Shown here: in pieces, positions 20,894 to 61,944 of the stretch | Position numbering within the stretch: the first letter of the stretch is position 1 | Layout of the letters: each line of letters opens with the position of its first letter | Source: Branchiostoma floridae | Lineage: Eukaryota; Chordata; Leptocardii; Amphioxiformes; Branchiostomatidae | Assembly: GCF_000003815.2 (NCBI RefSeq) | Contig: NC_049993.1 | Location: 15,951,350 to 16,015,349, forward strand | Length of the DNA: 64,000 bases | Reading direction: 5' to 3' | Notes under the pieces: generated by a model | Told to the model about the DNA's origin: nothing | The model's input: the letters and a program-made list of their open reading frames with translations, nothing else | Databases searched by the model: none | Translations under genes and position numbers: made by a program

Positions 20894-21669
20894 GTGCTAC
20901 TACGATTTCTTGTGATAGCATATTCCGCATATCGCACGATGAGTGCAGTGAATCGCAGATAAATCGTAATCAAAATCAGCCATCGCAGAGCATCGGATGA
21001 TGTTCCAAATTTTTCCAGACGGTCGTACGATTTTTCACTTGTGTCTCTTCTAAATAGCCGCCTGACGGCTTTTGTGCATGCTTCTTCAACCAACCGAATG
21101 TGGACCTAGCTGTTGAATACCTTCCTATAATGTCTTTTACTGAAAAAAGAAACCATAACAACATGAGTCTTACAGAATTATCACATTGTTGGAGTTTATC
21201 TTAGTTCCCATTTTATTCATGGGGTTGTCAAGCTCACCTAGACCAACCTCCTTGCCCAGACTATTGCCCTGGTCCGATGGAGGTATGTACCAATCAAAAG
21301 CAGTTTCATTCCTGCAAGTTGGGTTTGTGTCCAAATGACCTCACAGTCTGTGTCCAGATCTGGTCTGTGGGTGACAATCAGATCATCCCTGTTTGCATGA
21401 AATACACCACCTCCTAGCCAATTTGTCTGTCTTTACAGTGTACAATGTAGTTGTCAGGGAAGACTTGCTGCTTGACATGTTTTCATTGAGCCATGACTCT
21501 GCGCCCGCTAATGTCTGGCTTATAAGTGTCAATCACAGTTGCCAATTCAGCAGTTTTGTTTCGAACACTCGGCAGTTTAACAGCAATAGAGTGAACGTAA
21601 CGTTGATCAGATATATCTTTTCCCAGCCAAGCTCGTGTAGAAGAGAAGAATAAGAAGACTCGCTCACGG

Positions 21670-29500: not shown

Positions 29501-32500
29501 CCTCACAATAACTAGTACTAAAACTGATTTTTTGATAGGACCTCTGGCCTTTGATAGGACCTCTGAGAGGAAGACAGAGGAACCGTTGGAAAGACAACAT
29601 AAGAGAATGGACCAGGTTGAGTTTAGCAGAAGCCATAAGAGCGGCAGGGGACAGAGACAGGTGGAGGAGAATAGTGGATGGAGTCATGGTGCCCCAACGA
29701 CCCATACAGAGGTCAGGGGATAGGTGAGGTGGTCTGACCTTTTGGTTCCTCCATGTTGAGACGGCCTGCACATCGGCATGTGAGGAGGGTGAGCAGCGTG
29801 ATCCCGGTGGTGAGGACGGGGATCAGGAACCCGATCCAGAACGACACGTCCTGCTGGATCCACGCGATCACGGACAGGGAGAACCCGGCTCCGAGATTCA
29901 GCATCCAGAAAAACCTTAGCAGGGAAACAAGTTTCAGTTTGAGTTTCTTCCTTTGGGCCTTATCGATACCTTATCAACATAAATAATTAGACAAAAAACT
30001 ACACGGCAAACAGGAACATAACCCGGAGCCCGGCCGGGACTACATCCCTTATTGGCACTGGTCGGTTCAAATGGGACCCTAGCATTAATAAACTTCGCTG
30101 GTCCATTGTTAATGTTAAGTCCCATACAGGACTGGTGTTCAGCGTTATGTTACCATTGTAAGTTCCATACAGGATTGTTTGTACAGTGCTAATATCAAGT
30201 TTCATACAGGACTGGTGTCCTCTTTAAATGTTAAGTTCGTTATAGGACTGGTGTTCAGTGTTAATGCTACCATTGTAAGTTCCATAGGGGAAAAACTTCA
30301 CTATGCAGTGAGTGTGCACTGAACGACCTACCAGTTGAAGAAGCTCCGTTCTGTCTCCATGGTCATGCCCGAGGCCTGCTGTGCCGCGAACGGCGCGACG
30401 TTAGCCTTGATGCCGCCCTGCCCGATCACCACCAGGAACAACGCGACCAGGAACACGCCCCTCTCCGTCTCCTGTCCGAGGTCCGACTCCTCACCGAAAT
30501 ACTCCACGTAGGGGAAGGCAGCGATAGGCAGCAAAGCCATTCCTTCGGAAGAAAACAGATGATGTTTTGAAAAGTCAAGTTATTTATTTTCTGTATCCTG
30601 CTCTGTAGGTGCGTGATAGAATAAATCTAAGTGGTTATACTAATGTCAATGGGCTTTGACATTTTCTTAACCACAGTAAGTACTAAGTAATTGCTAAGTA
30701 ATGTGTGTGTATTTCTTTTTTGGTATCTATTTTCTTTTTATCAGTCCATTTGCATTTATATTGTTGAGGTTGATTTTTAAATTTGAGTGTGTCATCTTGT
30801 TACTGTTGTTTATGATTCCAATGAAAAGGAAATGTTAAAGGTACTTAAAAAGGTACAAAATAAATCATGAATTAATGAATGCGCACTTTTCATTGATCAA
30901 TGTCAAAATGAACTTCTTTGCCGTCTTAATATTCACTTCTTGTCAACTTCGACTAGAAGTGTACGTATAATACCACTAACTTTATGACAACTGTAGAAGG
31001 TGCATGAAAAGGTGCATAAAAAGGTACAAAGCAAAAGACAAGGTGTATTTCAATTTACCATCGTCATAAAGGACAATTTTACATTCTGAGGGTTCACTTC
31101 TACTAAAAAGTATGTATAAAACTAGTAAAATTGGAGGCAACTGTAAAAGGCCCTTACCAGACGCCATCAGCAGCCCGCTCCCCACGATGGTGAGGTACCG
31201 CCCTGCGCACGTGTCGGCCAGGAAGCCCCCTAGCGGCGGCAGCAGGCAGCCCGACCCGCTGAACACCAGGCTGATGATCACCGCTTCTGTACTGTAGAAG
31301 ACATCAAAACATAGCAATAGATTCAGTATGGTAAATACAGTAATATACGTCGTCATCTGCGCAGGCTTTAAAAGACAATGATAGGCTTTAACAGACTATT
31401 TGACTCAACCGAAAGGCATGCAGCCCGACCCACTGAACACCAGGCTGATGCTGACCGCTTCCGTACTGTATAAGACAGCACAACATAGCAATAGTATGGT
31501 AAATACAGTAATATACGTCGTCATCTGCGCAGGCTTTAAAAGACTATGATAGGCTTTAACAGACTATTTGACTCAACCGAAAGGCAGCACGACCCACTGA
31601 AACACCAGACTGATGATGACCGCTTCCGTACTTCATAAGACAACATAATATAGCGATAGATGTGTAGCATATGTTACCAAAATGAAGACAGACCTGATAG
31701 TGGATGACACTTGAAGACAGAAGAAAAATGCTAAGACATTGCATGATGACCAATAAACTGGTGGACGTACCGATCGACTGATAAGTATTTAATACCAGGT
31801 CAAATAAGACCAAGGAATAGTCAAGTACCTGAGTTACCAACCTAGGATTGATGCGTTCAAAAATTTGTATTTTCCCAGAACTATCGTAGAGTGGAATATG
31901 TTATCACAAAGCACAGTAGGGGCATCTTTACAGGACAGTATCAAAGAAGACTTGCAGATAGATGTGCAAAAGTTAGGTCTTGATCTTGATCTTGATTGGA
32001 TACTGGACAACGCCCCTCAGTTGGGGCAAAGCGTCCAGGGGGAGTGCTGCGCCTTAATGTCCCCTGAGGCGTCGGAGAACTGCCTCCTTGAACTTTGGAG
32101 CGTCTGTGATCTCCGTGACCTCGTACGGTAGGGAGTTCCAGTCTCTCACGGTTTGTGGGAAGAAGGAATGTTTGTAGCAGTCTTTGTGAAAAGGTAGAGC
32201 CTTGTAAGAATTTGGATTTGAGTGTCGCGATTGGCGCGGTACAGGCTTTAGCTGAGTTTCGACCGGTAGGGCTACTTTATGGTGTCTTGCTTTCTGTAAA
32301 ATTGTTAATCTATTTGCTGTCCTTCTGTTGCGTAAAGTATCCCACCCCAAGTCAGAGACAAGTTTGGTGACACTATCATAACTATGATACGAATTTGTGA
32401 CGAATCTGGCCGCTCTTTTTTGAACGGACTCTAACTTAGCAATATGCTCTTTGTGGTATGGATCCCAGGCAGCGCTGGAATACTCTAAATGTGGTCTAAC

Positions 32501-35500
32501 AAGGGATATATATGCATTTGTTTTGACTGATTTGGGGCAGTTATAAAGATTGCGTCTCACAAAGCCTAACGTCTTGTTAGCCTTGGAAGCACTGTACTGT
32601 ATGTGTTGTGACCAAGAGAGCTGGTTGTTGAGTGTGACTCCTAAGTATTTGTGGTTGTTAGTCTCGGCTAGAACATGACTTCCTAGTTTGTAGTCGTAAA
32701 GTTTAGGTTTACGTTTGTGGGTATAACGCATAACAAAACATTTGTCCGGGTGTAATTTCATCTGCCATGTGTTTTGCCATGTATCTAATGTATTGATGTC
32801 CTCTTGTAAGAGGGTGTGATCTCTGTCACTGTTTATCTCCCTGTAAATGACGCAGTCATCCGCAAAGAGTCGGATGTTAGAGTTGAGGTTGTCGGCTAAG
32901 TCATTAATGTACACTAAGAACAGTAGTGCACTAGTGGTCCGAGCACAGTACCCTGGGGCACTCCAGAGACTACCTCTGCCCACTCTGAGTGCTCTCCCCC
33001 AACTACCACTCTTTGTTTACGATTTTTGAGGAAATTAGAGATCCAGTGAAGTACCTTACCCCTAATACCATAATTTTGGAGTTTTAGGAGTAAGCGATCA
33101 TGAGGTACTTTGTCAAAAGCTTTTGCGAAGTCGGTTATAATCATATCTGTCTGCGACCTGGTATCTAAAGAATGGGCTAAGTCAGTTGTAGTTAAAATAA
33201 GTTGAGTTTCACATGAACGCTTTTTCCTAAACCCATGCTGCTTGTCAGATAATATAGAGTATTTGTCAAAATGATCCATCATCTGTGATTGCACTATGTG
33301 CTCCATAACCTTACTACAAACACATGTGAGAGAAACAGGACGGTAATTTGCAGGATCAGTCCTGTCCCCCTTTTTAAAGATGGGAGAGATATTGGCGTGT
33401 AGCCATGGGGAAGGGATTTGGCCAGTTTCAAGTGATTTCTGACAAATAATAGTCAGAGCAGGGGCTAACTCAGCAGCTGCTAGTTTGAGGATCCTTGTTG
33501 GTAGGCCGTCTGGTCCACTTGCTTTGTGTGGATTTAGATCTTTCAGGAGTTTGGTGACTCCGTTTACATTGATGGAAAAGTCAGGCATAGTGGGGATAGA
33601 ACTACGGGGGAGGTGGGGCATGTGTTCATCCTCTCGTGTAAAGACAGAGCTGAATTGGTTGTTAAGGATGTTAGCTTTGTTTCTGTTATCTGTTTCTAGC
33701 TTACCTTTCTGCTTAAGACTGGGGATCCCAGTTGTATCCTGTTTTAAGTGTTTGATGTGCGACCAAAACTTCTTGGGGGAATCAGAACATATAGAATTTA
33801 CATATTTACGGTAGTTTTGTCTGGTAGTCTTTTTTGCTCGTTTGCGAATAGTGCGGAATTTAGTCAAGTTCTCAGTTGTTGGGTTTTTACGATAAGAGTT
33901 GTAGGCTCGCTGTTTTTTCTTATGTATTTTCCTAACCTTGTTGTTAATCCAAGGTGAAAAATTATTATTGTTTACAGTTTTGGATGGGACATATTTATCC
34001 ATTACTATCTTGATTTTGTCCACAAATTCATTATAAAGCTCTTCTGTTGTGCAGTTGTCAATGTTCCGTTTAGCTAAATTATTACTGTATTCCTGTAGCT
34101 CAGTTCTTATGGCGGTTTCATCAGCTTTTTTCCAGAGTGAAACACGCCTGGGGCTTTGTTTGATTTTCTTAGGTTTAACATTAACAGTAATAACTGGGAT
34201 GCCGTCATGGTCCCCTATACCTGGGATCAGAGAACAAGTTTCAACAAGTGATGAATTATTAGTTAAGAAAAGATCAAGGGTGTTATTGAGACGGGTTGGT
34301 TGATCCACAACCTGTTCCAGCCCAAAGTCATGTGTTAACTCTAAAAAATGCTTAGAAAGTGCACTATAGGGAGCGCTTGGGCTCACACATAAGTTGTTCC
34401 AGTCTATACCAGGGAAATTGTGACAGGTCGTTCAGTGTACTAGTAATATAACCGGCTGCTGCCGTGTCTGCGAAGCTAGTGTGTTACGCCAAATGTAAGG
34501 GCGGTTATGCCGGCTATATAGAGAAATGCAGTAATATATCCTCTAAAGTATGTCATCATCCACATGGTAGGCTTTAAAAGACTATAATGTTGATTTGTTC
34601 AGGTTCCTGACACAAACGAAATGTTTTATTGCCCTACTGTGCCTGCTTAGCAACAGCAAAACAGGAAAGATTAATTGCAAACCTTTACCAAAACGTTAGT
34701 CCATAAAACGTATTATTTGTTTTCAGGATATTGTAATTTTGTCTCCATTTGCCACAGAAACCGGTTTTTCAACATGTCTAATTACTGTGTATCACATGGT
34801 ATGTAGACGACTCTTCAATCTTTGTCAGGTGACATAAGGGGTAAATAGAAACACTGGTATACATGTTCACCTATGTCACAAATTGTTGACATAAATTAAC
34901 AATTTGACCCGCACACCTCAGGTTGTACGAGGGGCGTGCAATAAGTAATGGTCCTGACCCACTTCCAGTTGTCTGATCTAAATGAAATTTTGTATGTGTA
35001 ACAATTCATATCTCTATGGGTTATGTTGCAAAAGACAGCTCTGAACTAATTGTGGTGTCTGATTTACTGGTGTTTGAACTTAGTCAGGTGCGAAATGGAC
35101 CAGGTGTGAAATGGAACCAGTTGAGTGTCGCGCAGTGATCCGGTTTTTGTATTTGAAAGGACGCACACCAAAGAAGACTTTTGATGAAATAAATGAAACT
35201 TATGGTGATGATGCCCCATCATATGACCTTGTAAAACGCTGGCATCCTGAATTCAAACGTGGCTGGAAGTCTGTGGAAACAGCTCCCAGACCTGGTCGTC
35301 CCTCTTGTGCCATTGATGAGGCATCAGTTGGAGGACTAACCTGGGGTGTCCTACAAAATCGGTGTCCAGAGCTGCATCAAACGATGGGAGAAATGCATAA
35401 CTCTGGGTGATTCCTATGAAGAGAAAGACTAATAACTGTGCCAAGTTTCATTAATCTCCTGCTATGGGAAATGGGTCAGGACCATTACTAATTGCACGCC

Positions 35501-38019: not shown

Positions 38020-40710
38020 ATGGAGTTTGTACGCTTGACGGTTCTCTGTATGCTGGCCATGGTAGGGAGTCTTGGGTTCCGGGCAGCACGTGCGAGCGCG
38101 GTGCCGAAGTGTCGGTGGGTGTGCGACGAAGAGCCGCGCAGAGACAGCAGACTGACATACCACAGTAAGTGATATAGATATGAGATGTGGTTTTCCACAT
38201 TGCGAATGTTCTGTTTCTTCTTCTTGGTGCTTCTTGAATTGAGGAATGACGGCGGCCTATATAGCTCCCGAGTCTCTCCGTCTCCTCCAATAGGACAGGA
38301 TGAAAATAAGAGACCGTCAAACTTTAGTACCAGGCTAGAATGACGAAACATGACAAACTGTACGCAGTGTCTCTGTAACAGCAGAAATCGACCAGCCGAC
38401 GGATCTGCGAGCTCTAAGAGATATTTCCAGCACTAATGCTCCCGGTGCTCTCTCGATCGCGACCATTTTTAGCGAGACGTGCGCGGTCTCCGAGCCCCGT
38501 CGAATGTGATTTTTAGCTAAAAAAAAAAAAAAAAAACAACGACCGAGTCATTACAGATATTTCAATTTTGTGACCTTTTAGAGATTAAAAAATACTGTAC
38601 GACCGGAGCTAGAGCTAGTCGACTGTATGACAGAGGTCAATATAGGTGTCATTATTTCCAGGCACTTGCTAATGAGATATGACGTTTTTCGTTTTGTCTT
38701 TCTTTCTTTTTTTCTTGTGCATTACCAAAGAGATTTTCGTTAGAGTTATCTCTTGATTTCAAACGACACTCTATGATCGCTTTTAGCCCGTAAAATAACG
38801 TTATAGTCAAACCTGTACAAATGACCATCTCATCACGATGTCCACATGGCCAATGTACTCACTTTTTGGTAGCCCCTTAGACAATTTGTCAAATTTGCAT
38901 CTGACCTAAGCATAAATAGTGTTTACGATGACCACCTGTCCATTTTTTGACCAGATTCTATCTGTTCTCGTTGGCAGTTTTGACAGTAAAACGGTTGGGC
39001 CATCCAAGGCGTTTCTACAAATTTGGTCAGGCTATTAACGTAATACATCCTTCTCTACAGGTGAAATGGAGATGAACGAAAGGGAACAACCGAGACGCCT
39101 GAGGGTCGACCCCTACCCGTACCCCCCGCAGCCGTCCCAGCAGAACCACAGGGTGGCTTTCTCTGTTGCACGAACGACCCCTATCGGCCCACTTCCGAAC
39201 GACACCATCCTGCCCTTCGACTTCATGTTCAGTAACGCCGGTGGAGCGTTCGACATGGAGACGGGCATCTTCACCGCCCCTGTTAGTGGTAAGTGCGACA
39301 CAATTTTGTGTAAAAAAAAAAGCAAAATTCATAATGAATTTGTACCCTTCTTAATTTCATAGAAACATTGTGTTGAAGTGACAAAAGAAAAAAGTACATG
39401 GCCCCACACATCCTATTTTAACACAGGACCGTTACCAGTAATTTGAGTTAAGCTACAATGATCATAAAACAAAGCAGTCAGATTCTGTATGCACAGCTGA
39501 CTATACGATGGCGACAATTGCCCTAGGGCCATTCAACTGAAAACAGATCTACATTTGCAACGCCCAGACAACAATTTGGTGGTTTCATTGTTGTTTATGT
39601 ATTTCATCCATTTTTCTAGGCACGTATTTCTTCTCGTTCCGCGGCCAGAAGCGCTCGGCGCAGTACCTGATGTACCTGGGCCTGTGGAAGAACGGGGAGG
39701 AGATGGCCGGGGTGTACGAGGACAACCTGGACCCGCAGAACCCCTCTCCGAGCCCCGGAAACGCCTCCAACAACCTCGTGCTGCATCTGTTCGAGCGGGA
39801 CCAGGTACGGGGATGGCGAGTTTTTACATTGCATGTGGGACACATTTGTCCTTCGTACGAACGAACGAACGAACGAACGAACGGACGGACGAACAAACTA
39901 ATGAACGAATGAACGAGGAACTTTATACCTCAGTCAGTCAGTCAGTCAGTCAGTCAGTCAGTCACTCACTCACTCACTCACTCACTCACTCACTCACTCA
40001 CTCTGATTCACTCACTCACTCAATCATTCACTCACTCACTCACTCACTCACTCAATCATTCACTCACTCACTCACTCTGATTCACTCACTCACTCACTCA
40101 CTCACTCACTCACTCACTCACTCACTCACTCACTCACACATACACTAACCTTTAGTTTTTGATATCAGTTCAGCACCAAGGACAGATCCTATTACAGATT
40201 TGTAATGCATGTTGTTGTTGGTGTCTCGCTTTGCACTAGCCTGGGTACCATCCTATTTCTACCGGGGTTCCTTACACTCACTTCCCTACAAAAATTTTTT
40301 AGGGGTAGCGAGTGTAAGGAGCCCCGGTAGAATACGGATGATACTCAGGCTAGCTTTGCACTTAGTAGCTAACTAATTAATGTTGCCAGAATAAGTAACA
40401 TTAGCGAACAAGGTAACCATCAGCAGCCAGCCAACTCATGTCGGAAAACCAAACAAGCAAACGGCGAAACAGCACTTACGACTGATCAGCTTTTAAAACG
40501 AATTGACCACAAACGATTTGTTATATTGATAATCGATCTTACTTTGCAAAGCCAACTTCCTAGCTTTATTACCCATAACCCTCTCCTTTACCCACAATCC
40601 CTCAGGTGTACCTGATGATCAGTGACAACGCCATCGCCTTCTCTACGGTGTTCGGCAAGTACGTGGGCTTCTCCGGCTTCCTGCTCTTCCCGGACAACCC
40701 TTATGCATAG
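38020..40710 (+). CDS. secreted cerebellin-like C1q-domain protein
   Basis: Four exons, 38020-38164, 39061-39288, 39620-39804 and 40606-40710, join in phase to give 220 residues. Residues 1-25 form a signal peptide. A short N-terminal segment has CRWVC (C31, C35) followed by DEEP, closely resembling the CxxxC-D..P motif by which cerebellins assemble trimers into hexamers. Residues 80-220 are a full globular C1q domain: VAFSVARTTPIGP, FDFMFSNAGGAFDMETGIFTAPVSG, TYFFSF and the terminal GFSGFLLFPD. There is no collagen repeat, so it belongs to the short secreted globular C1q class, predicted to form extracellular oligomers. The ligand is unknown; in invertebrate chordates such proteins include immune lectins and neural factors. 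Confidence 0.93.
39858..40138. repeat. compound microsatellite (CGAA)n-(CAGT)n-(CACT)n
   Basis: Three adjoining tetranucleotide arrays in C1q intron 3: cgaa/cgga units, then cagt units from about 39932, then a long cact array with a few tgattcact and caatcatt interruptions to about 40138. Confidence 0.95.
40236..40353. mobile_element. palindromic MITE (CTAGCCTG ends)
   Basis: CTAGCCTGGGTACCATCC at the left pairs with the right arm ending ..CAGGCTAG, as do accggggttccttacactc and gagtgtaaggagccccggt. The flanks share CTTTGCA, a likely 7-8 bp target duplication. In C1q intron 3. Confidence 0.75.
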
Positions 40711-41843: not shown

Positions 41844-42126
41844 TCGGTCGGTAACATTTCCGATAGATTCTGACAGTGTTTCAGGCAATTTACAAGCCTA
41901 TCGAGCGCTAGACGAGAACCAGAGTTTCTTACGGGCCATACTGACGAAACTAGCGGCTTTTGAAGCGAAGAAATCGGTTTTGTTTTGAGGATTTCCTTCG
42001 TAACCAGGGACTGACAGTTCGCTGCTTTACTATCGATCCAGCCGAGATTCAAGGAGATTTAATCTTCGGTGGTGTCACGACAAGACCTCTGCTGCTAATC
42101 TCTGAGAGGTAAGGACAGATTCCGCC

Positions 42127-45100
42127 ATGGGGAAGGACTACTACAAGGTTCTGGGTATCTCCAGAGACGCGAACGAGGACCAGATAAAGAAGGCGTACAG
42201 AAAGATGGCGCTGAAATACCACCCCGATAAAAACAAATCTGCGGGCGCCGAGGAAAAATTCAAGGAGATCGCAGAGGCGTATGAAGTATTAAGCGACCCG
42301 AAGAAGAGAGAAATATATGATCAGTATGGTAAGTATGTCTTGGTTTTTGTTTCCGTAAAAGTCTCAGAAATATCTGGTCCAAAAGTAGGTGGATGAAACG
42401 CAGTTAGATGACAACTGTGACGTAATTATGAGAAAGGTCTATAAAACTATGACAGTTATAATATGTCATTTTCTGTGGCTAGATTTATGACAGTGGCATT
42501 TGTTTCATCATAAGAAGTTGTTGTAGTCAATTTCCAGTCCAAGTGTGTTCTGTATCGTACATCTGGCGGTACTTCCTAAGACATTGCTAGAAGTTACTAG
42601 AACGTACTCCATAATTCGCCCCGCCCCCTAAATGTAAATGTTTCTAAAACGAACCGCACAAATAACGTTACAGCCCGAGGTGCAGTGATTCACCAGGGTA
42701 TAATGTAGCTGTGTCTCAGATCTGTTTTCCGTCACTAGGTTGTTAAGTATCTAGTTTGGTTTAGTAAATTACCAAAAAATTCAATCAGAGCCTACCACAA
42801 ACGATTGAAGCCATCAAGAACTCATGCTGTCGAACATCAAAACATGTTCATATTCCTGTAATATTCAAATGCAAATACTACTGCTCAGCTGTATCTTTGA
42901 AAATGCACATAGATCCAAACTAAGAAGTGCAGTTTTACTCAGAATCTTAGTAATCGCAATAGGTAGTCCAACTGACAGTTTGACCTCTGACCTTACTTCA
43001 GGTAGGCATTAGAAATACTACACTAGTTCTTTAACACCCTCGGCTTCAAAACCCTTTTGTGGGCGGAGCAACCCTATTTGCCCATAGTATAGCCGAGTGC
43101 CCATGTTCTAATCTAACTCTTACGTAGGTGATAATTCAAGCCAATATTGATATCATAGGTTACCACATGAATATTAACAATCAACATCCTGACATTGACC
43201 ATGATCCTACCATTTATTCGGCAGGAGAGGAGGGTCTGAAGGGTGGTGGTGGCGGCGGCGGCGGCGGGGGAACCGGCGGTCCCGGCAGCTACACATACAC
43301 CTTCCACGGCGACCCCAACGAAACCTTCCAGAGGTTTTTCGGAACGTCGAACCCCTTCGAGGCATTCTCCTTCATGAGCAATGGCGGCTCCCAACGCATG
43401 TTCTTCAGGTGTGTATTCACGCTGACTCCAAATCTCCAAGCAGATGTTGTGGTACAAAATTGTGAAGTTTTCTGACAGGGATTTTTGCAGCCTTCTTAGC
43501 AGACGCTTTGGGTCTGCCTTTTTTCTGATGGCATACTGTAACAGTAAATGCATTTAATTTTGCGGGGATTTACTTTTGTAGCATCAGGAAAATGTAGTGT
43601 TCGTGGCAGGGCTTTAGCCAGCTCGAATTTTTTTTCCGTCAGCCAATTACAATTGTCGCGAAAACCGCGAAAATTGATTAGAAGGACTGAACTGAGACCT
43701 TGAAAAACGGGTTTTAATGAGATTATCGTATGCGAAAGGGCGCCGACACACATTGTCAACAATCATAACAATAGCAAAACAAACAGTGTGTGGCTTTTAC
43801 GGCCGTGGACGGCGTCCCCAAGCCGCCTGTAGCTTCCACCAAGGATTTTTGTCCGTCAAGGTTGACGGATTGGTTTTAAAATTTTTCCGTCAGACGCAGC
43901 AAATTTCCGTCAATTGACGGAAAAACGGACGCTGGCTAAACCCCTGGTTCGTGGTGGTTTTAAGTTCACGGTAGCACCATAGACTGTAGTCACATACTAT
44001 GATCGAAAAATGTTTGCCGCGGTTTTAAGTTTATGGTGAAGTAGCCACTGCGAAAACCACAAACATGAAACCACCACAAACATTTCTGCATTTACACTAT
44101 TACAGTATCAGACTTATTGCACTCTGTTTCTATTGCACTCAGATCATAGATTCCAACTTATATGCCATCAGAAAAAAAGCTGTACCCATAGAGTGTGCTA
44201 TTGTGCTCAGGAGGCCAGCTATAGTATAGGTTTCCTGACAGTCTGGCCACTAGGAATGATCAGTAAACTTCACGATTTTCCAACACAACATCTGCTTGGA
44301 ACTTCATCTGCCTTGACAGTGGAGCAGTTTTGCGAGAATAGCAGTCTGTTGCCTGTTAGCGATGTTGTGTACTTTGTCGTGATTAGTTGATGCAGGAATG
44401 GCTGTTCTTTGTGCAACTCGTGTGTTGTGTCATGTGACTTCAGCCAACCAATCAGCAGCTACAGTACAACACAGAAAATTGGTGGACTGGCACAAAATCT
44501 GGATTTTCCTGCTTTTTCTGGGGTTTGTCTGTGGCCGTTGAATTGTACTACTGTAAGTTCATTTAAGTTCGCGAGATTTTTAAGTTCGCGTATTTCGCTG
44601 AGACCTTTGCTTCGCGAAGTCATCTACTCGCGAACATGCATGTTCAATATCGTCCCCCTCCCCACACCCTCCGTCCAAAAGATCCAGTCTCTGAAACTAC
44701 GTGTTTACTATGATAGCAACTTATACCAATGACAAGACCCAATTGATAACAGACTATTTATTCTTTTCAAACCGAAATAAAAGTTGATTCAACACATATA
44801 CGATACAGGGAGTCATTATTGTATAGAAATGTGCCACCGGCGACCGGAGGAAAAAGAAACATGTCGGCTTTGTTTACAAACAAAACTTACGTACACGCCG
44901 TGACATGGCTCTTTCTTTAACCTCCTTGGCTGCGATAACAATCTACTTAGTACATTATCCTAGTTTAACTAGATTTCTACAAGTTAAAAACAGAACAAAA
45001 AAATAAAACTGAGTAGTACCGGTCTTTACAAATACAAGTAATGGCTATGGAATTACAGCAACTAAGATTTACAGCAAATTATAATGACGGGGAAATTTTC

Positions 45101-48100: not shown

Positions 48101-50719
48101 TTCACCGGCTTCGGCCATATGGGAGGAATGGGAGGGGGGCACGGACCTACACGGATGAGGAAAGAAGTCCAGGTAAGGACTTGTTTATTTGTTTATTGAA
48201 GTTTTCATTGCAAAAATTGAGGGCAAGACAAAACAGGTGACAGGTCACCTGTTTTGTCTCAATAATAATTGGAAACAAAAAAACATTCCACACTACTTTC
48301 TGTTGTGTTTCAAAACTTACAAACACTTGTCAAGAACTGTTATATTCTTTTTTAGCACATCTGTTGAGCTAAGGGCACAACCTGCCCTCCGTGCAATTTG
48401 TCCGTACGTTTTTTTTTGGAGGCCACGTCCGCCACATATTTCTGAAAATGTTCAGGCTGTACAGTGCAGGCGCGTCGCCCGTACTGGCACATATGGAGGG
48501 CGAATCCGCAGCCAGATAGCATGTACGTTGCCTGCACGTTAAGTTCTACGGCATGTCTGCGTGCTCCAAAATTTGTCAGATTCCCTGCGAGTTCGTACGG
48601 AGGCAGTACTTGCCACTTACGGATCCCAAAAGATTGCCCACGTTTTGGCACGTAGACAGCACGTATTTGCACGTACAGCGGGTTGTGCCCTTAGTTTTAG
48701 TCTCCGAATGGAGTTTTGCTCCTTGGGAGATACAAAAATCCCATGTGCCTTTTGTATTGGTGAGGGCCCAGGTATAATAATAATGATGATATCGGGTGTA
48801 TTTACAGCCAGTAGGTACCCAATGTAATAATCATTTCCTTACATTTCTGATGTTGTTGAACAACGCTTTTGAACAGTGTTATTGAAGAATGTGTTAAAGA
48901 CAAGGATCGAAAGAGACATTGGACAGTCAGGATCATACTGGAAAACTTTATCTAGTACTAGTGTGCCTCACCAGTGAAAAACCTGATCCATGATGATGAT
49001 GATGATGAAGTATGTGTATTTTCTATATTCCAGGGTCAATGTAATTAAGGATTCCTTTTGAAATGTTTTCAGGACCCTCCAATCACCCACAATCTCATGG
49101 TCTCCCTGGACGAAGTTTACCGCGGGACCACGAAAAAGATGAAAATCAACCGTCAGGTGATCGGCGCGGACGGCTACGCGAGGCGGGAAGACAAGGTTCT
49201 GGAGATCCAGATCAAGAAGGGCTGGAAGGAGGGAACCAAGATCACGTTTCCCAAGGAGGGCGACCAGAAGCCCGGCCATATTCCCGCGGATATCGTCTTC
49301 GTCTTAAAGGATAAACTAAACCCGGTCTTCAAGAGAGACGGGAGTAACCTGATCTACACAGCAAGACTCTCCTTGAGAGATGTAAGTACTGCAGTTTTTC
49401 TTCTTTACTTGAAAATAATTTTTTTTGTTATTGAGTTTTCATAGACCAATAACAAAAAAGCTGGTGAACCTTCCAAGGAAAATAATGTCAACAGAAATTC
49501 AAATCTTTTGTAACAGAAATTCTGAGTTTTCCAACCAGAGAAATGTATTAAGATGAATTAGAATATGACACCACTTAAATGACGTAAATAAATTTTCTTT
49601 ATAAAGCATTTAGAATCATCTTGTATGGCAAAAATGCCATGAATCACATAATATTATTCGGTTACAAATTCTCATTGCCAAGCAGTTAAAAAGGACAACT
49701 TTCTTCATGTACAAAACAACAACAGTTGCTTCTTTAACTTCATCTGTGTTGGTAGAAGTCATCATTGAACTAGTTTAACTGTAATATCTACTTTAATACA
49801 CAAAAGTTGGACTTGACAAAGACTGGTGCTGTTCAGTCAAAAATTTGGGTGAGTCCAATTGTTGTGTTGGATATTACAGTTAAACTAGTTCAAAAGTTGC
49901 TTCCTTGATTTGAAGTCTAAACAAAATCATCATGTTAAAAAAGCCGTGCAGTTCTGTGTGTACAAGAAGACAGGAAATAGGTGTCAACTTGAGATTCTCT
50001 GGTTGCGTTCCCGACAGTCTGATTCAGACCAGTAAGGTCATAGCTAGCATAGCTGGAGACTCCGGGTATGTGCCCCGCCGGTTTTGGGTGCACCAGCTGA
50101 GGGTCCTGGACTATTTTCGGCTCCCAGACGTCGCTCTGGGAGAGTAAAGATAGCACGGCGTTACGCAGCAGTACATTCTCAGTTACATATACTAGTAGTT
50201 GATGGAAGACTGTTAGTATATAGTACATACCTCCCTAATGCCACACCAATTTTATTTGTTTCTCTGATTTGAACATTGTGTCTCATGTCAATTGTCAACT
50301 TTGGAGTTTAAATAATTCACAAAAATTATTTTGGGTCATGTCTCACCCTTCTCAGACTATCCAGCTTGCTCCAAATTTCAGGGTCAGCTACAGTTAGTGA
50401 GATTTAGCTTAAACTACATTGTGTTATTTGAAAAATAGGCACCATATTTCTCCAATAATAACAAGTCATTTCTTCTTTTCCTCAGGCCTTGGTTGGTTGT
50501 ACAGTGCAAGTTCCCACCTTGGATCAAGGCAGGACTGTTCCCATCCACTGCCAGGACATTGTCAAACCTACGTCAAAAAAGATTATCCGGGGGGAGGGAC
50601 TCCCCTTGCCTAAACAGCCAAGTCAGCGAGGAAACATTGTTGTACAGTTTGATATCCAGTTTCCCAACGGACTATCGCCGTCGACAAAGGACATTTTGCG
50701 GGACTGTCTACCAGCGTAG
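42127..50719 (+). CDS. DNAJB1-like: DnaJ homolog subfamily B (DNAJB1/4/5 type), Hsp40 co-chaperone
   Basis: Five exons, 42127-42328, 43225-43408, 48043-48172, 49073-49381 and 50486-50719, join in phase to give 352 residues (human DNAJB1 has 340). Residues 1-70 are the J domain with the HPD motif at 32-34, which stimulates Hsp70 ATPase. A G-rich linker follows ([14 protein letters not shown]) with the [22 protein letters not shown] region, then two C-terminal beta-barrel domains ([48 protein letters not shown]). There is no cysteine-rich zinc domain, so this is a class II (type B) Hsp40, cytosolic and nuclear, delivering unfolded clients to Hsp70. One gene probably stands for the vertebrate DNAJB1/4/5 group. 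The promoter has a strong heat-shock element. Intron 2 (4.6 kb) is packed with mobile elements. Confidence 0.96.
43535..44107. mobile_element. TACTGTAA-type TIR element, interrupted by a hAT insertion
   Basis: The ends tactgta..agtaaatgcattt (43535) and gcatttac..tacagta (to 44107) are inverted. The interior phrases (ggtggttttaagttc, accaccacaaac) match elements at 1701 and 15945. A 340-bp hAT-like insertion (43607-43946) interrupts it, with an 8-bp duplication. In DNAJB intron 2. Confidence 0.65.
43607..43946. mobile_element. hAT-like non-autonomous element with perfect 8-bp target duplication
   Basis: The ends CAGGGCTTTAGCCAGC and GCTGGCTAAACCCCTG are inverted. The exact octamer GTTCGTGG flanks it at 43599-43606 and 43947-43954. 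The 8-bp duplication and CAGGG end indicate the hAT superfamily. The interior has repeated ccgtca/tgacgg inverted motifs and no transposase. It shares its end type with the element at 61973-62335. Confidence 0.85.
44549..45730. mobile_element. 1.18-kb TIR element (TACTGTAAGTTCATTTAAGT ends)
   Basis: The left end TACTGTAAGTTCATTTAAGT, followed by tcgcgag, is mirrored by ctcgcgaac..aaatgaacttacagta at 45703-45730, so TA plus a CTGTAAG terminus lies on each side. Internal frames are short and unrecognised, so it is probably non-autonomous. In DNAJB intron 2. Confidence 0.65.
46735..47065. repeat. degenerate direct duplication, about 180-bp unit
   Basis: gcattgatataa, agcagaagactaccaaaacat, gtgagaag.aat.tgattt, gcaaacaaag and ggaatatcatgttgg occur in the same order in 46738-46885 and 46916-47045. 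Non-coding, DNAJB intron 2. Confidence 0.65.
47769..47898. repeat. minisatellite, about 22-bp unit, six copies
   Basis: Units of cattattcagtacttttaagt with slight variation. About 140 bp before the acceptor of DNAJB exon 3. Confidence 0.85.
48369..48694. mobile_element. MITE with TIR CTAAGGGCACAACC
   Basis: CTAAGGGCACAACC at the left and GGTTGTGCCCTTAG at the right are exact inverted repeats 326 bp apart. The minus strand is open almost throughout (106 codons) but matches no known protein and probably reflects GC-rich repeat sequence. In DNAJB intron 3. Confidence 0.7.
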
Positions 50720-54764: not shown

Positions 54765-57700
54765 GAATACGGCTGAGGTGAGCGATGCTTTTCGAACATC
54801 TGTCTCGTTTTGTTTATTGTTAAAGCCATTTTAAAGAACTGAAGTCTACTAAGGACAGGCGGTTACTTTATCTATTTTCTTAATTGGATTTGTGTTGTAA
54901 TTACCTTAGAATTCGACGTAGATCATATTTTGTTAGAAGGGGGAGGGGGGTCGTCTCTTCAAAGGCCATGCCTTTACTCATTATGAAGTCTGAACATGTA
55001 ACAAGTGGTCATGTCTGAATGCAGAAAAGTGTTCCACAGTTAATCGAATGAACTACCTTTTCTCTTTTTAAAAATCGTGAAAAAATGTCGATGCTTGTAT
55101 TTATGGAGATCGGTGCACGGTAATACCATATGGTACATAGAAGTAACAGGATCAGGATAAAAGAAAAACAACAACAACAACAACATGATGGGTGGAAGAT
55201 CCATCGTAACGTTTTCTGACGGCTAGGTTTCTCTGACAGCCGCCCCTTGTATGAGTGAGTCAGTGGCTCTTGCTGTAAAAATACGGTTACGGTCTTCCAC
55301 CCCAACATCTGCTTGGAGATTATGAGCATAAACAGCTGCTTGAAGCATACAGTGTGTATGTGAAACTCCCACGCTGATTTTTATCTAGCTCTGAATAGTT
55401 TAGATGGTTAGATGCTTTAAAAACACAAGAATAACTCATTTTGACTGTTTGACAGTCTTCAATGTGTTTGATAAACAGCAGAATAGAGAGAAGAGTAGAG
55501 ATTCTTTTGACATATATATTGTTACACTGTACATTATCATATAATATTTTGCATTACATAACAACTACTCTCCAAGAAGAGGTTTGATGGGCTTCAAAGT
55601 ATGTCTTGAATAAAGAAGCACATCCTCTTTTTCGTTTTTGAGGCTACCAACTTCAATTTGCTGAAGACTTTTGTAGGTAGCCTACTAGTGTATAGGAAGG
55701 TCGTGTAATATAATAAAGTGTCTTTCCCAAGGGCACAAGATCGGTGACACGGCGGGGTTTGAACTCAGGACCTTCTGGGCCTGAGTCAAATGTGCTGCTG
55801 ATTGCGCCGCGCGGCCACGCATCTTGAGATGATTGTTACTGACTACTGTCCGTGTCACGTTGTTACAGAACTTCCCTGAGCTGAAGAATGACCTGATGCT
55901 CCGCGCCGCCCGCGGAGAGAAGACGGAACGCGTGCCCGTCTGGGTGATGAGACAAGCTGGCAGATACCTGGAGGGTAAAAACGTCCCTTTATCTCATTAC
56001 TGCAAATGCAGCAACTTTTGCCTTGGATTTATGTTTGCAATTGTTGACGTGCTAGCTTCACTGCAAACCCAAAAACGTTGTCTCCTGCTCGCGCCAGCTT
56101 GGGTACCATCCGGATAGTAGTTCGCTCCTATGTTCCCTTCTGCTATCCGTCTTGAGACTTCAGTTAATGAGTTCTAGGAACCAAGGAATGGGTTCTAGAG
56201 CACTGGTGCGATGACAACAGGCCAAGTGCTCTAACTGTTTTTCCAACACGACACTTCAATAGAGCTTACAAAATTGTGTTTTAATCCATGCAGTGTCATT
56301 GCTAATACTTGAATGTTTTTATGATTTTCCAGAGTTCAGGGCCATGAGGGCGGAGAATGAGTTCTTCAAGGTGTGTCAGACACCTGAGCTGGCCTGTGAA
56401 GTTACCTTACAGGTGAGCTCAACATGCTGAGAAGTCTTTGATGCAGTCTCCACAGTGTCTTTCTCTCTTTGTTCAATGATTTGTTAAGATGTGACTGTAA
56501 TCCTGGTAGAATATGTCATGCCAAGTAGCTGACTGCAATATAAATGCAGTCAAACCTACATACAAGTGACCACTTCTACATAAGGACCACCTGATCGTTG
56601 ATATGTATGCTAGACACTTGATTATTGTACTGAAATTAATACTCTATCCAGACCAGAAGCTGAAGTTAATCTAGAACCCAGTCATCATCATCATCGGTCG
56701 GCTGCTATTTTTATTGAACCCCTTCTATGCTTGAACCCCATCTCTGATGTAGTTTATATGTGTTATAACTTATAGTAAGAAATGTTGACTGTTCCCCACA
56801 GCCCATCCGCAGGTTTCAGCTGGATGCAGCGATTATCTTCTCCGACATTCTGGTGGTGCCTCAGGTAAAGTACTATGATCAATATTGTTATTATTATCCC
56901 TTCTTGTATTTGCGTTAAGTACATGTGCATGTGAGATTTTAAGATTGCTTATCAAATAATTGTTTTTAAAAGAATTGTAGAATTTGAAGGTCTCTGTTCT
57001 TTAACTTAAGTCTGATTTGATTCTTTGTCGTATAAGAGGATAGGTATGTGTATCTGTGTGTGGATGGTGTCTAGCACCAGGGACAGCTGTATTTGTGTGT
57101 GGATTGCATTCAGTATCAGGGACAGGAGTGTTTACCTGTGTATGGATGGTGTTCAGTACCAGGGACAGGTATGTTTACCTGTGTATGGATGGTGTTCAGC
57201 ACCAGGGACAGGTATGTTTACCTGTGTATGGATGGTGTTCAGCACCAGGGACAGGTATGTTTACCTGTGTGTGGATGGTGTTCAGCTCCCAGGGCAGGTA
57301 TGGGTGTGGATGGTGTTCAGCACCAAGGACAGGTGTGCTTACTTGTGTGTGGATGGTGTTCAGCACCAAGCACACATGTGTGTGGATGTTGTTTAGCACC
57401 AGGAACAGGTGTGTTTACCTGTGTTTAGATGGTTCTAGTACAATGACAGGTGTGTTCCAATGTTGAACAGATAATACCACGGAGAAAACAAAGTTTGGTA
57501 AGCTGTTACTGCTGAAGTTACACCCCCACGTTATACACAAAATGTATAACTGTAATGTTCTGTCAATCCAGGCACTTGGTATGACTGTAGAGATGATACC
57601 AGGGAAGGGCCCCAGTTTTCCTGAACCATTAAAGTTACCGGAGGACTTGTCCAAACTAGACAAGGATGTGGACGTGAACAAGACCCTCGGCTACGTGTTC

Positions 57701-59874
57701 GATGCCATCACTTTAACCAGGCACAAGCTGGAGGGAAAGGTGCCTCTTATAGGGTTTTCTGGAGCACCAGTAAGTATGATTCACCATGATAGTCAATCTG
57801 TTGTAACTGAACTGAGACTCCATAAAGACCCTTTTGATTCTGACAATAAAGTGCTTTAGAAAGTCCAGGTAGTACTTTTGAATAGGATTGAGCTCTAAGT
57901 CGTACCACTTTATGTTGTAGCTGTGACATAACATAAACATTTTTTCGTCTTTCAAAGCTAAGAAAAAGATGTGGTATACCAAAAATCATACAGTCAAACC
58001 TGTACAAGTGACCACCTCTATATACAGCCTACCTCTGCGTAAGGACTGCCTGAGCATTGTCGTCAGTCCGACAGTCCATGTTGTCCCTTATTTTCCCAGT
58101 GGACCCTGATGTGTTATATGATAGAGGGAGGAGGCTCAGAGAGCATGAGTAAGCTTAAACAGTGGCTGTACAAGTTTGAGGAGGAATAAACTAACTTGTG
58201 TTCCCTTATGATTTTTTTCCAAAGGATGCTGATGTGCTACATGATAGAGGAAGGAGGCTCAGAGAGCATGAGTAAGCCCAAACAGTGGCTGTACCATTAT
58301 GAGGAGGAATAAACTAACTTGTGTTCCTTTATAATTTTCCCAGTGGACGCTGATGTGTTACATGATAGAGGGAGGAGGCTCAGAAAGCATGAGTAAGCCC
58401 AAACAGTGGCTGTACAAGTATGAGGAGGAATAAACTAACTTGTGTCCCTTATTTTTCCAGTGGACACTGATGTGCTATATGATAGAGGGAGGAGGGTCAG
58501 AGAGCATGAGTATTGAGCCCAAACAGTGGCTGTACCAGTACCAAAGTTGTCCTTATTTTCCCAGTAGCTGTATCAGTACCAAAGTTGTCCCTTATTTTTC
58601 CAGTGGACCCTGATGTGTTATATGATAGAGGGAGGAGGCTCATAGAGCATGAGTAAGCCCAAACAGTGGCTGTAACAGTAACAATGTTGTCCCTTATTTC
58701 CCCAGTGGACCCTGATGTGTTACATGATCGAGGGAGGAGGCTCAGAAAGCATGAGTAAGCCCAAACAGTGGCTGTAACAGTAACAATGTTGTCCCTTATT
58801 TTCCCAGTGGACGCTGATGTGTTATATGATAGAGGGAGGAGGCTCAGAGAGCATGAGTAAGCCCAAACAGTGGCTGTACAAGTACGAGGAGGCGAGCCAC
58901 CAGCTGTTGAACATCCTGACTAAAGTCATCATCGATTACCTGGTGGGGCAGGTCATCGCTGGTGCACAGGTAAGGACACACCCCCGCCTTTAAAATGGTA
59001 GGTCCAGGGTTTGATAAGCAGTGCTCGAAATACTAGTACTCCAAATACCATGCAAGGTTGCACCATCAACATTTCCGGTTGACCCACTTCCAAGTTGTTA
59101 CTCTCTTCAACTCGGCTACTTATCCATTAACTTTTTTTTCATTTACATATATTTTGTATATCTGTGGCCTTGATATGCATTGACACTTAAGCATTAATGT
59201 AACTACTACCCAGGATTTTTGTTGTTGTTCTGAGAGCCTTCACAAACTTTGGAAAATCACAGGTGAATCCAATATCGGAAATGTTGCTTTCACCTTCTGT
59301 AGAGATTTCTTGTTGCAAGATTGAACATCACCTGTAAGGAAATCGGTTAATGAACATGTTTTGCACCAGTGAGATACCCCTAATATTTCTGATTACTGTG
59401 ATGTGATAGCTTACAGCACTGGTCAGAATGTCAGTGTTGTGTTTCACACCTGTCCAGCTGCTGCAGGTGTTTGAGTCCCACGCCGGCCACCTGTGTGCCC
59501 GCACCTTCAACACCTTCGCCCTGCCCTACCTCAGCATCATCGCCAGACAGGTGGAGGAGAAGGTTCGAGCACAGGGCAAGGAGCCCGTACCTATGGTGAG
59601 TTAAGAGTCTTCTCAAGACATAGCAGTCTGGCTGTGTAGTAGTACACTGTAGTGGTATCCAGTACAGGTAGCAGTCGGCTAGTCTTCACTCTGCACTTCC
59701 AAACTTCTAAACAGGGTAAGGAGCCCGTACCTATGGTGAGCCATGACATGGAAGTTTGACTGTCTGCCTAAATTTCCCTTGATCCCTTAACTTAATATTT
59801 TCTTTCTTTTAATATTGATTAGCATTGTGTATAAATGTCATGAACCACTAAGAAAGGTATTAAATCCTGATTGC

Positions 59875-59917
<43 letters not shown>

Positions 59918-61944
59918 TTTACTGTACATGTTTCGATATGTTGTATCTTCAGATCATATTTGCCAAGGGTGCCCACTATGCTATAGAGGACCTGGCGCAG
60001 AGTGGGTATGAAGTAGTGGGTCTGGACTGGACTGTGAACCCAAAGACTGCACGGTATGTTTTACATGGATTACAATGATGATACATGTATAGCCTTAGCT
60101 ATATTGAAAGTTCATTTCTATCACATACTGATTGTAGATATTATGTAGTAGCCTCCACCAGTCCTTCTTACAAGGGCATGGATTGTTGAATTTGGCAAAG
60201 GTGGGAGAATTGGCCAGGAGAGTCCCACTCAATAACTACTGCGCGGTTGATCAAAACCTATAATTTTTGACGTGGCAGTATTATGGCACCCAGAAGCTTA
60301 ACATTCCATAACTGTGCAGTTGGTCAAACCCTATCAACAATTTTCATGTGGCAGTATTATGGCACCCAGTGGAATTATTGTTGTCTCCAGAGAGTTGTTG
60401 CTAATAGATGTCTTTCTTTATTCCTACCACATACTTGTCATTAGCCTTCAGGCATGAACTTGCAAGTACTAGTACTTTCATCATTATATTGTTTTTTTTG
60501 TGCTCACTATTGTTCTTGTTATATCATTTCCAGACACCAGACCCAAGGAAAGGTGACATTACAGGGAAACATGGACCCTGGTGCTCTATATGCCTCAAAG
60601 GTACCGTACCATCATGTTGGTTTCTAGTGTTGTCTTGATATTCACACATGTCAGCATGTGTAATCCAGTGGTTAGCGGCACTGCATCTGGCACTATAACT
60701 TGATAGAAGCCATGCATTAGTTCAATCTGGGCTGTTCCTATCACCCGACATGCGCACTACTATGGCAAGGGTTGACGTTCTTAGGACGGGACGTTAAGCC
60801 GTGGCCTATTGTTCATGTGCACGTCAAAAAGAGCGGGTACAATGAACCTGTAAATACTGTACATAGTCACGACCAGTGGAAGAGTTCAGCTCTTCAGTGA
60901 GCTAAACTGGATTGATATCAGTTTGGTATTCTACTGCACCTTCCATGCTTTATATGAATACAGTAGAAGCCAGTTAATTGCACAACGGATAATCGCACAC
61001 TTCTCTTAATTGCACAAAATCCCCAAATCCCATGATGGTGCAGTCCAGCTTAATAACTTCACTTTGTGGCGCCATTCGGATAATTGCAAATTGCAAGAAA
61101 TGCACTGGCAAATGGGGTGTGCAATTAAGCGGCTTCTACTGAACAAGGAAATAGAGAAAAGTATGAAATACTGCAGCTAGTCTTACTTTGAATTCTAAGT
61201 CTGCCATGTAACATAATAGTCATTTCTATCACTTTGTAATATTAGACTTAATGCACCATGTATTTGTTTGTAAGTCTGATCAGTAGCTGTATGTATCTGT
61301 TTATGTATCTGCATAGATGTTTTTTATTGTATGAGCCCTAGAAGATTAGTGTGATCTGGAGCTAAAGGGCATCCCAATAAACTCAGTCCAAAAACATTTT
61401 TGCCGGTGCGTAGCACTTGCTATGAGACGGGAGAAGCGGTTGTATGGATGCATGGATGCATGGATCGGTCACTTTAACCAAATAGCCCTTCTATACGTGC
61501 TATTGCGTAATCGAGCCAGCGTGGCCGAACGGTCTACAGCACGGTACCTATCTTCCGTAGATCGTAGGTTCGAACCCCACTTGCTAAATTTTTTTTTTCT
61601 TTGTTGGACAAATCTCATGTAGTGTTTTTTTAATAGAAGAAAGACCAATTCAGTAATTCAATGTTTAAAAACTCTTTTTTCGTGTGATTTTGTTTAACAT
61701 CCAGGCTTTTCCAAAATACGCACCGGCCAGCTTTTTTCAGAAGCTTTCTTGTTTCCCTGCCCCCCAGGAGGAGATTCGGACCATCGTGAGAGAAATGTTG
61801 GAACAGTTCGGGACCCAGCAGCACATTGCTAACCTGGGCCACGGGATCTACCCAACCATCGACCCCGATCACGTGGAAGCCTTCGTGGACGCCGTACATT
61901 CCATATCTGAGGAGATCAACCTGGATAGCAAGAAGAAAAACTAG
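54757..61944 (+). CDS. UROD: uroporphyrinogen decarboxylase
   Basis: Cytosolic homodimeric enzyme of heme synthesis that removes four carboxyl groups from uroporphyrinogen III to give coproporphyrinogen III, without cofactor. Ten exons: 54757-54777, 55869-55974, 56333-56412, 56802-56864, 57572-57769, 58808-58969, 59458-59595, 59953-60053, 60534-60600 and 61768-61944, giving 370 residues (human 367). Both family signatures are present: [11 protein letters not shown] and GFSGAPWTL (the second split by intron 5). Pocket residues align with a constant offset of two from human: R35, R39, D84 (human D86), Y162, S217 and H337 in NLGHGIYP. The start is set by ATGGCGGCG inside an AAGATGGCGGC YY1-type element, common in TATA-less housekeeping promoters. 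Introns 4, 5 and 7 contain unusual tandem repeats, some derived from the gene's own exons. Confidence 0.97.
55617..55826 (-). mobile_element. tRNA-derived SINE, minus strand, in UROD intron 1
   Basis: Read on the minus strand it starts gcgtggccgcgcggcgcaat (A-box region), then gagttcaaaccccgcc (B-box) and cttgggaaagacacttta, the conserved core also seen at 3040-3312. It ends about 40 bp before the acceptor of UROD exon 2. Confidence 0.7.
57045..57450 (+). repeat. 43-bp minisatellite in UROD intron 4
   Basis: About nine units of the type ggacaggtatgtttacctgt..gtatggatggtgttcagcaccag. Inner units are spaced exactly 43 bp (ggacag at 57163, 57206, 57249). The unit length is not a multiple of three, so long spurious frames open in all three frames. 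Several units carry CAG|GTATGT, a good 5' splice-site match. Confidence 0.9.
58092..58807 (+). pseudogene. six tandem pseudo-exon copies of UROD exon 6 start
   Basis: Copies of the exon 6 beginning start at 58100, 58224, 58344, 58461, 58604 and 58706; the real exon starts at 58808. Spacings are 124, 120, 117, 143, 102 and 102 bp. Five keep a ttttcccag-like acceptor and the [13 protein letters not shown] coding text; copy 2 has a damaged junction (aaaggatgct). Each meets a stop: copies 1-3 read into GAGGAGGAATAA, copy 5 has TCATAG, and copies 5 and 6 have TAA for the Tyr codon. None has the exon 3' half or a donor. A small extra fragment is at about 58549-58600. Confidence 0.92.
59712..59740 (+). 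pseudogene. duplicated 3' end of UROD exon 7 with donor
   Basis: Twenty-nine bases repeat the end of exon 7 plus its donor (cagggtaaggagcccgtacc.. atg|gtgag) with one mismatch, 145 bp downstream of the true donor. No acceptor accompanies it. Confidence 0.85.
59877..59913. repeat. (AT)n microsatellite
   Basis: About 18 AT units in UROD intron 7, some 40 bp before the exon 8 acceptor. Confidence 0.97.
60655..60930 (+). mobile_element. tRNA-derived SINE-like element in UROD intron 9
   Basis: A-box-like ccagtggttagcggcactgc and B-box-like agttcaatctggg form a tRNA-like head. A central gacgggacgttaagccgtgg block and cacgtcaaaaagagc follow, typical of SINE central domains in invertebrates. No flanking duplication was identified. 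Confidence 0.5.
61514..61585 (+). tRNA. tRNA-like sequence with internal Pol III boxes (probably pseudogene or SINE head)
   Basis: tggccgaacgg matches the A box and ggttcgaacccc the B box at tRNA spacing; the T loop TTCGAAC is perfect with a 4/5 stem. A run of ten T at 61589-61598 would terminate Pol III. The acceptor stem and anticodon arm do not fold cleanly (AGC/GCT pairs but with mismatches), so no isotype is assigned. In UROD intron 9, about 180 bp before the exon 10 acceptor. Confidence 0.4.

Follow-up and report, generated by a model that had tools for sequence, protein, structure and literature searches.

Decoy acceptors before exon 6 of the lancelet UROD gene: a probable amphioxus mirage at a heme-enzyme locus

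Why should an intron of a heme-enzyme gene carry, one behind another, several imperfect copies of the beginning of its own next exon, and are these copies ever used in splicing? The locus lies within a 64,000-nucleotide stretch of Branchiostoma floridae DNA (hereafter the window), in which exons placed on the sequence put the host gene, UROD, on the plus strand from 55.9 to approximately 61.9 kb. Its identity is given by a Pfam search (PF01208, E 1.9e-83) and by a structure-sequence search that returned solved UROD structures, which we take to be human, at E 6.9e-90. Exon 5 (57572..57769, plus strand) ends in phase 0 with GGAGCACCA before gtaagt, a donor scoring 7.49, and is followed by intron 5 (57770..58807, plus strand), which contains the array, and by the real exon 6 (58808..58969, plus strand), a number that assumes one first exon upstream of 55869. 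Exon 6 has an acceptor of 9.17 and a CAG/GTAAGG donor of 12.08; these and all other splice scores come from a Shapiro-Senapathy-style matrix rather than a trained model. A genome search with the start of exon 6, which scores best candidates only (here one of one), found no second UROD locus, since all seven matches fell at the site of the array. The copied segment aligns to WTLMTYMVEGGG of the UROD structure, in which the tyrosine is counted as residue 164, a residue of the catalytic pocket; a preliminary description had likewise taken the copies to encode a catalytic-pocket segment.

The array consists of six imperfect copies, each made up of the end of intron 5 and of some 80-85 nt from the start of exon 6, placed directly upstream of the exon. 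With the real exon, repeat finding sets seven units in register at start-to-start spacings of 123, 121, 117, 143, 102 and 102, and self-BLAST gives an extent of 58078-58892, its best pair reaching E 0.0, far beyond chance. The six tandem copies and the two final spacings of exactly 102 had been correctly described beforehand, as had the extent of the array save for its start, which is near 58078 and not 58092. The ends of all copies given below are approximate, and all lie on the plus strand. Copy 1 (58078..58189) has an acceptor of 9.17, a first exon-like base at 58100 and an in-frame TAA lying inside an AATAAA at 58185. Copy 2 (58190..58312, AATAAA at 58308) has lost the homologous AG, now AA and scoring -0.28; an AG two bases further on provides a shifted site at 58225 that scores 6.70 and leads to a stop after 16 codons. 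Copy 3 (58313..58433, AATAAA at 58429) has an acceptor of 4.62 (58344) and not one amino-acid change across its first 23 codons. Copy 4 (58434..58549; acceptor 9.18, 58461) is open for 50 codons and carries a 3-nt insertion that removes its internal GTAAGC. Copy 5 (58588..58685; acceptor 9.18, 58604) has a GAG-to-TAG change at codon 14, and copy 6 (58686..58785; acceptor 9.37, 58706) has a TAA at codon 24 and differs from exon 6 over the first 23 codons by four synonymous substitutions and nothing else. Read from the homologous start, copies 1 to 6 meet an in-phase stop after 29, 29, 29, 50, 13 and 23 codons, which bears out the expectation of a quick stop in every copy. The homologous AG is kept in five of the six full copies, as previously counted; the count of six full copies also holds, while a further acceptor-bearing unit had been overlooked. 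This is a truncated unit of 38 bp (58550..58587) between copies 4 and 5, with an acceptor of 9.17 at 58565 and a TAG directly after it.

The junctions between units are of two kinds in the alignment. In copies 1-3, the exon sequence runs into GAGGAGGAATAAACTAACTTGTG at its end, whereas in copies 4-6 it breaks off sooner, a stretch resembling TACCAGTACC or TAACAGTAACA leading into GTTGTCC. The truncated unit would be what is left of a unit of 102 bp after the loss of about 63 bp, between two CAGTGG motifs, and of one further base; it takes up most of the 143 spacing and, with the insertion of 3 nt in copy 4, explains it. Copy 1 is the only copy that keeps the non-repeated 5' flank, and therefore probably marks the older position of the acceptor, while the real exon 6 is the only unit to possess the downstream part of the exon. 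Flanks of this pattern would follow from growth of the array in the interval from an old acceptor position to today's exon.

Tandem duplications of this anatomy have been reported in amphioxus under the name of mirages, defined as minisatellite-like tandem duplications of an intron-exon boundary and described for globin and Adh3 genes (PMC3087553). In the globin account, BflGb6 carries a mirage of the 5' boundary with a unit of 150-160 bp and BflGb9 one of the 3' boundary with a unit of 157 bp (PMC3087553). The UROD array resembles the BflGb6, BflGb9 and Adh3 cases in that tandem units of intron end plus exon start, here 102-143 bp apart, stand before a real exon. It also shares with the globin and Adh3 mirages splice signals in many, not all, of its units (the AG of the truncated unit included), and its units may, like theirs, have exchanged sequence. 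Unit length is comparable too, at 102-123 bp when the 143 spacing is set aside, against 150-160 bp in BflGb6. It differs from these published mirages in its gene and in combining, within a single array, junctions of two types with one truncated unit. A closely similar arrangement is that of lancelet PGBD5, where imperfect tandem repeats of 60 and 108 bp lie over exon boundaries and differ in copy number between two published sequences (2 or 7, and 3 or 6); the same report, which also cites TnC, has its authors excluding a predicted extra exon within the repeats (PMC3902484). In UROD every copy has a stop. Our search of one literature library found no paper containing both 'uroporphyrinogen decarboxylase' and 'amphioxus', so that the UROD mirage seems undescribed within that library, mirages as a kind being already known.

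Two better-known arrangements offer themselves for comparison. Tandem exon duplication, which can give rise to alternative exons, likewise places repeated exon sequence before an exon; such a duplication would comprise a whole exon with its donor and an open frame, whereas the UROD copies are partial, all six contain stops and none reaches the end of exon 6. Decoy exons of the type found in OGT promote intron retention. The UROD array is like them in placing non-productive splice sites within an intron of a metabolic enzyme gene, and unlike them in that its copies have at most weak donors.

Most likely, the UROD array is a mirage of the amphioxus kind, a minisatellite whose decoy acceptors splicing probably ignores and whose units have probably traded sequence with the real exon. 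Its birth would lie in slippage or exchange. The junctions suggest a duplication that linked the interior of exon 6 to intron sequence about 21 nt short of the acceptor; further slippage, unequal exchange and conversion could then have yielded six full copies and one truncated unit. The copies would have been drawn from, and exchanged with, an exon under translation, which would account for most of their exonic differences being synonymous. In the cell, the decoys are most likely passed over because the last copy alone leads into the long open exon with its strong donor (58969). UROD mRNA would accordingly be normal, save for a possible low rate of mis-splicing to early stops and, presumably, mRNA decay; any use of a decoy would cut the protein soon after the Tyr164 region and likely condemn the message to degradation.

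The substitutions themselves fit exchange with a working exon. Over the first 23 codons of the seven units, 8 of 13 distinct changes are synonymous against an expected 0.20-0.24 (P 0.001-0.004), and 7 of 11 when codon 19, hit twice, is set aside (P 0.004); in these tests, which are small, each change counts as independent and copy 4 enters without its 3-nt insertion. All seven changes are synonymous in copies 3, 4 and 6, a subset picked post hoc, again without the insertion of copy 4, on which we do not rely. The same excess appears in a globin mirage of this genome, at the locus designated L037, where 10 of 13 changes are synonymous (P 0.0002), as counted by hand with shared changes taken once and codons past one copy's frameshift omitted. 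Such an excess is not what dead copies decaying in place would give; it would follow if a translated exon had repeatedly supplied the copies or converted them. Furthermore, among the few informative exonic sites, three of six pairs fit no single tree without repeated change, a count that allows for a three-state site (one pair with four combinations includes this site and fits a tree); these incompatible pairs fit exchange, and recurrent mutation could also have produced them. The label of an active tandem array, given to the locus in the preliminary description, thus draws indirect support only, from these signs of exchange. Amphioxus populations are reported to be very polymorphic, at about 3-5% (PMC7008246), and some differences between copies may therefore be old allelic synonymous variants.

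How strongly the decoys resemble the real site is evident from their scores. Acceptors of copies 1 to 6 score 9.17, -0.28, 4.62, 9.18, 9.18 and 9.37, so that four full copies and the truncated unit (9.17) fall at 9.17-9.37 beside the 9.17 of the true exon 6. Scores of 9.1 or more are reached by 69 of the 7553 AGs on both strands of the window; six other real UROD acceptors, the exon near 60535 left out, range from 5.74 to 8.75, and that of the probable last exon, at 61768, scores 12.89. Copies 2-4 have a strict branch-site word, CTAAC, 23-29 nt before the acceptor, and the true site lacks one. Exon 6 is therefore not singled out by acceptors; donors do so. The true donor at 58969, at 12.08, is the highest of eight UROD donors scored, and the best donor-like word in the copies is TGA/GTAAGC (4.90), present in five of the six and in exon 6 itself. 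The earlier statement that the copies lack a donor is right as regards a strong one and too strong as it stands, because UROD's own donors range from 4.46 to 12.08, with two real ones at 4.46 and 4.91. Its suggestion that exon definition by the true donor lets exon 6 win fits these values better than competition does, with the reservation that the last decoy (58706) could in principle join the donor at 58969 in an exon of 264 nt, an outcome that exon definition would by itself permit. In the proposed scoring of the seven acceptors, carried out here by matrix, most decoys score like the true site, so that on sequence alone they may compete with it; a lowered or regulated UROD output is a conjecture.

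Neutrality of the array for splicing is a probable reading drawn by analogy from other genes, and the local equality of most decoys and the true acceptor, with the better branch-site match in copies 2-4, counts against it. The same facts, and the early stop that follows every copy, favor a splicing sink, in which the decoys, in competition with exon 6, would draw an appreciable fraction of UROD transcripts into frames with early stops and so lower or regulate enzyme output, copy number thereby becoming a quantitative trait. We consider this unlikely: published mirages of globin, Adh and TnC genes are suggested, in the accounts given of them, not to disturb splicing (PMC3087553, PMC3902484), the globin decoys at L037 in this genome are equally strong, and the copies offer no donor-like word above 4.90. 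For the globins, the suggestion comes from RT-PCR and is joined to Adh3 data on regular splicing, the authors allowing for cryptic use (PMC3087553). It is tempting to speculate further that the decoys are used at a measurable rate and that the copy number of an unstable array forms a heritable, perhaps somatically variable, dial on heme-enzyme output; this we hold to be quite improbable. Misassembly of the repeats, or merging of haplotypes, could have inflated the copy number, and one globin mirage does appear aberrantly assembled in the draft genome, according to the legend of Additional file 4 (PMC3087553). In UROD, however, the copies differ from one another by substitutions and indels and show two junction types, and the region has no N and lies on a single 21.5-Mb contig, so that an artefact is very unlikely indeed; the exact copy number may nevertheless vary between haplotypes.

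Two further alternatives would turn copies into exons. Copies 1-3, each with an exon-like start and a stop codon overlapped by AATAAA (58185, 58308 and 58429), might serve as terminal exons, intronic polyadenylation then yielding a shortened UROD. The three hexamers, however, occupy one repeated stretch and therefore probably descend from a single chance event multiplied by duplication, the 7.7 kb scanned contain four more such motifs (55609, 55712, 57845 and 61376), and the product would lack all that follows the Tyr164 region; we give this scarcely any credence. Alternatively, one copy might be on the way to recruitment as a short exon, whether through its TGA/GTAAGC word, whose 4.90 in five of six copies lies within the range of real UROD donors, or by the route from mirage to intron that has been proposed in print for globins (PMC3087553). 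The internal donor, however, would delimit a piece of 49 nt (58100-58148 in copy 1) and shift the frame. Intron gain of the Rogers type, moreover, places an AGGT within the duplicated exon segment, and the sole AGGT in 58090-58969, at position 58950, is inside real exon 6 and outside the copied piece, so that no frame-keeping intron could arise at a duplicated AG/GT. A nascent intron or exon is thus barely to be entertained.

Within the window, a second 5'-boundary mirage occupies 31242..31659 of the minus strand, in an SLC15-like gene (SLC15A3 structure, E 8.1e-10; in Pfam, only a sub-threshold MFS_1 match). Two copies stand upstream of an exon that starts at 31291 with an acceptor of 6.03; their first exon-like bases are 31630, where the acceptor is broken (0.49), and 31465 (5.13). 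UROD itself carries a donor-side, mirage-like copy in the intron after exon 7, where 59711..59740 repeats the 3' boundary of that exon (59571..59600, plus strand, donor after 59595) in 29 of 30 nt, 140 bp downstream of the original. A 21-nt micro-exon derived from this copy was considered and rejected: between 59600 and 59740, AGs scoring above 2 precede only 59640 (2.11) and 59668 (4.46).

Our search of the genome gave nine globin loci, of which two have exon-touching repeats; at the other seven, no repeat touches the matched exon stretch, and the arrangement is far from universal. At L037 (1036-1506), a globin exon with a real acceptor of 10.26 is preceded by three decoys scoring 9.81, 9.48 and 10.26, the spacings between the four sites being 154, 158 and 158 bp. 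At the second locus, L033 (1642-1921), the end of a globin exon and its donor are repeated at 157 bp. These arrays match the published unit lengths and, by boundary side and unit length together, the two loci appear to correspond to the BflGb6 and BflGb9 mirages, in keeping with an origin in Branchiostoma floridae or a very close relative; two Rfam mir-2060 matches (see below) likewise point to Branchiostoma.

Over the 264 kb around the window, Tandem Repeats Finder (TRF) listed 24 rows with a period of at least 60. Those whose period is a multiple of 84 are probably zinc-finger coding repeats, and other arrays lie at 21303 (period 246), 48197 (255), 147768 and 157223 of the joined stretch. 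Five further array places were checked for open frames. In one of them, about 5 kb upstream of the window (L018, 4515-5117), a frame that encodes a hydrophobic segment is preceded by three decoys, whose acceptors end in CCCCCACACAG or a similar sequence; the array ends in this frame and repeats its start, and the Pfam matches are sub-threshold only. This is probably a further 5'-boundary mirage, of a putative coding frame. The other four places gave no clear coding sign (of three scanned with Pfam, two had no match and one a sub-threshold match). With two clear acceptor-side arrays and one probable in about 264 kb, mirages would not seem to be rare.

The wider interest of these arrays lies in the near-perfect decoy splice sites that stand in strings within lancelet genes, apparently ignored, and so offer natural tests of how a true 3' splice site is chosen. 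UROD adds a heme enzyme to the genes with mirages, and one in which most decoys score the same as the real site; it also suggests the working exon as the template from which mirage units are copied, or by which they are converted.

Some observations were made alongside. A bacterial promoter and terminator scan returned four promoter-like matches, all on repeat units and meaningless in an animal gene. Intron 4 of UROD contains a 43-bp minisatellite (57038-57433) that twice matches the Rfam family mir-2060, a family named in Branchiostoma belcheri, above its gathering score, at 57138-57223 (86.7 bits) and 57298-57385 (79.7), with 57048-57137 just below it (53.9 against 54.5). The published sequence of bbe-miR-2060c-3p agrees by eye with 57315-57334 in 19 of 20 bases. 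Either the minisatellite of this heme-enzyme intron gave rise to a microRNA, or the microRNA as annotated derives from a repeat. Elsewhere in the window, two open frames at 32054-34431 on the minus strand are retroelement-like, 32914-34431 matching the reverse transcriptase PF00078 (E 2.7e-20). Finally, 39039-39362 is a frame with a C1q domain, and 42106-42396 and 49049-49444 are DnaJ and DnaJ_C frames, the latter two probably belonging to one DnaJ-type gene.
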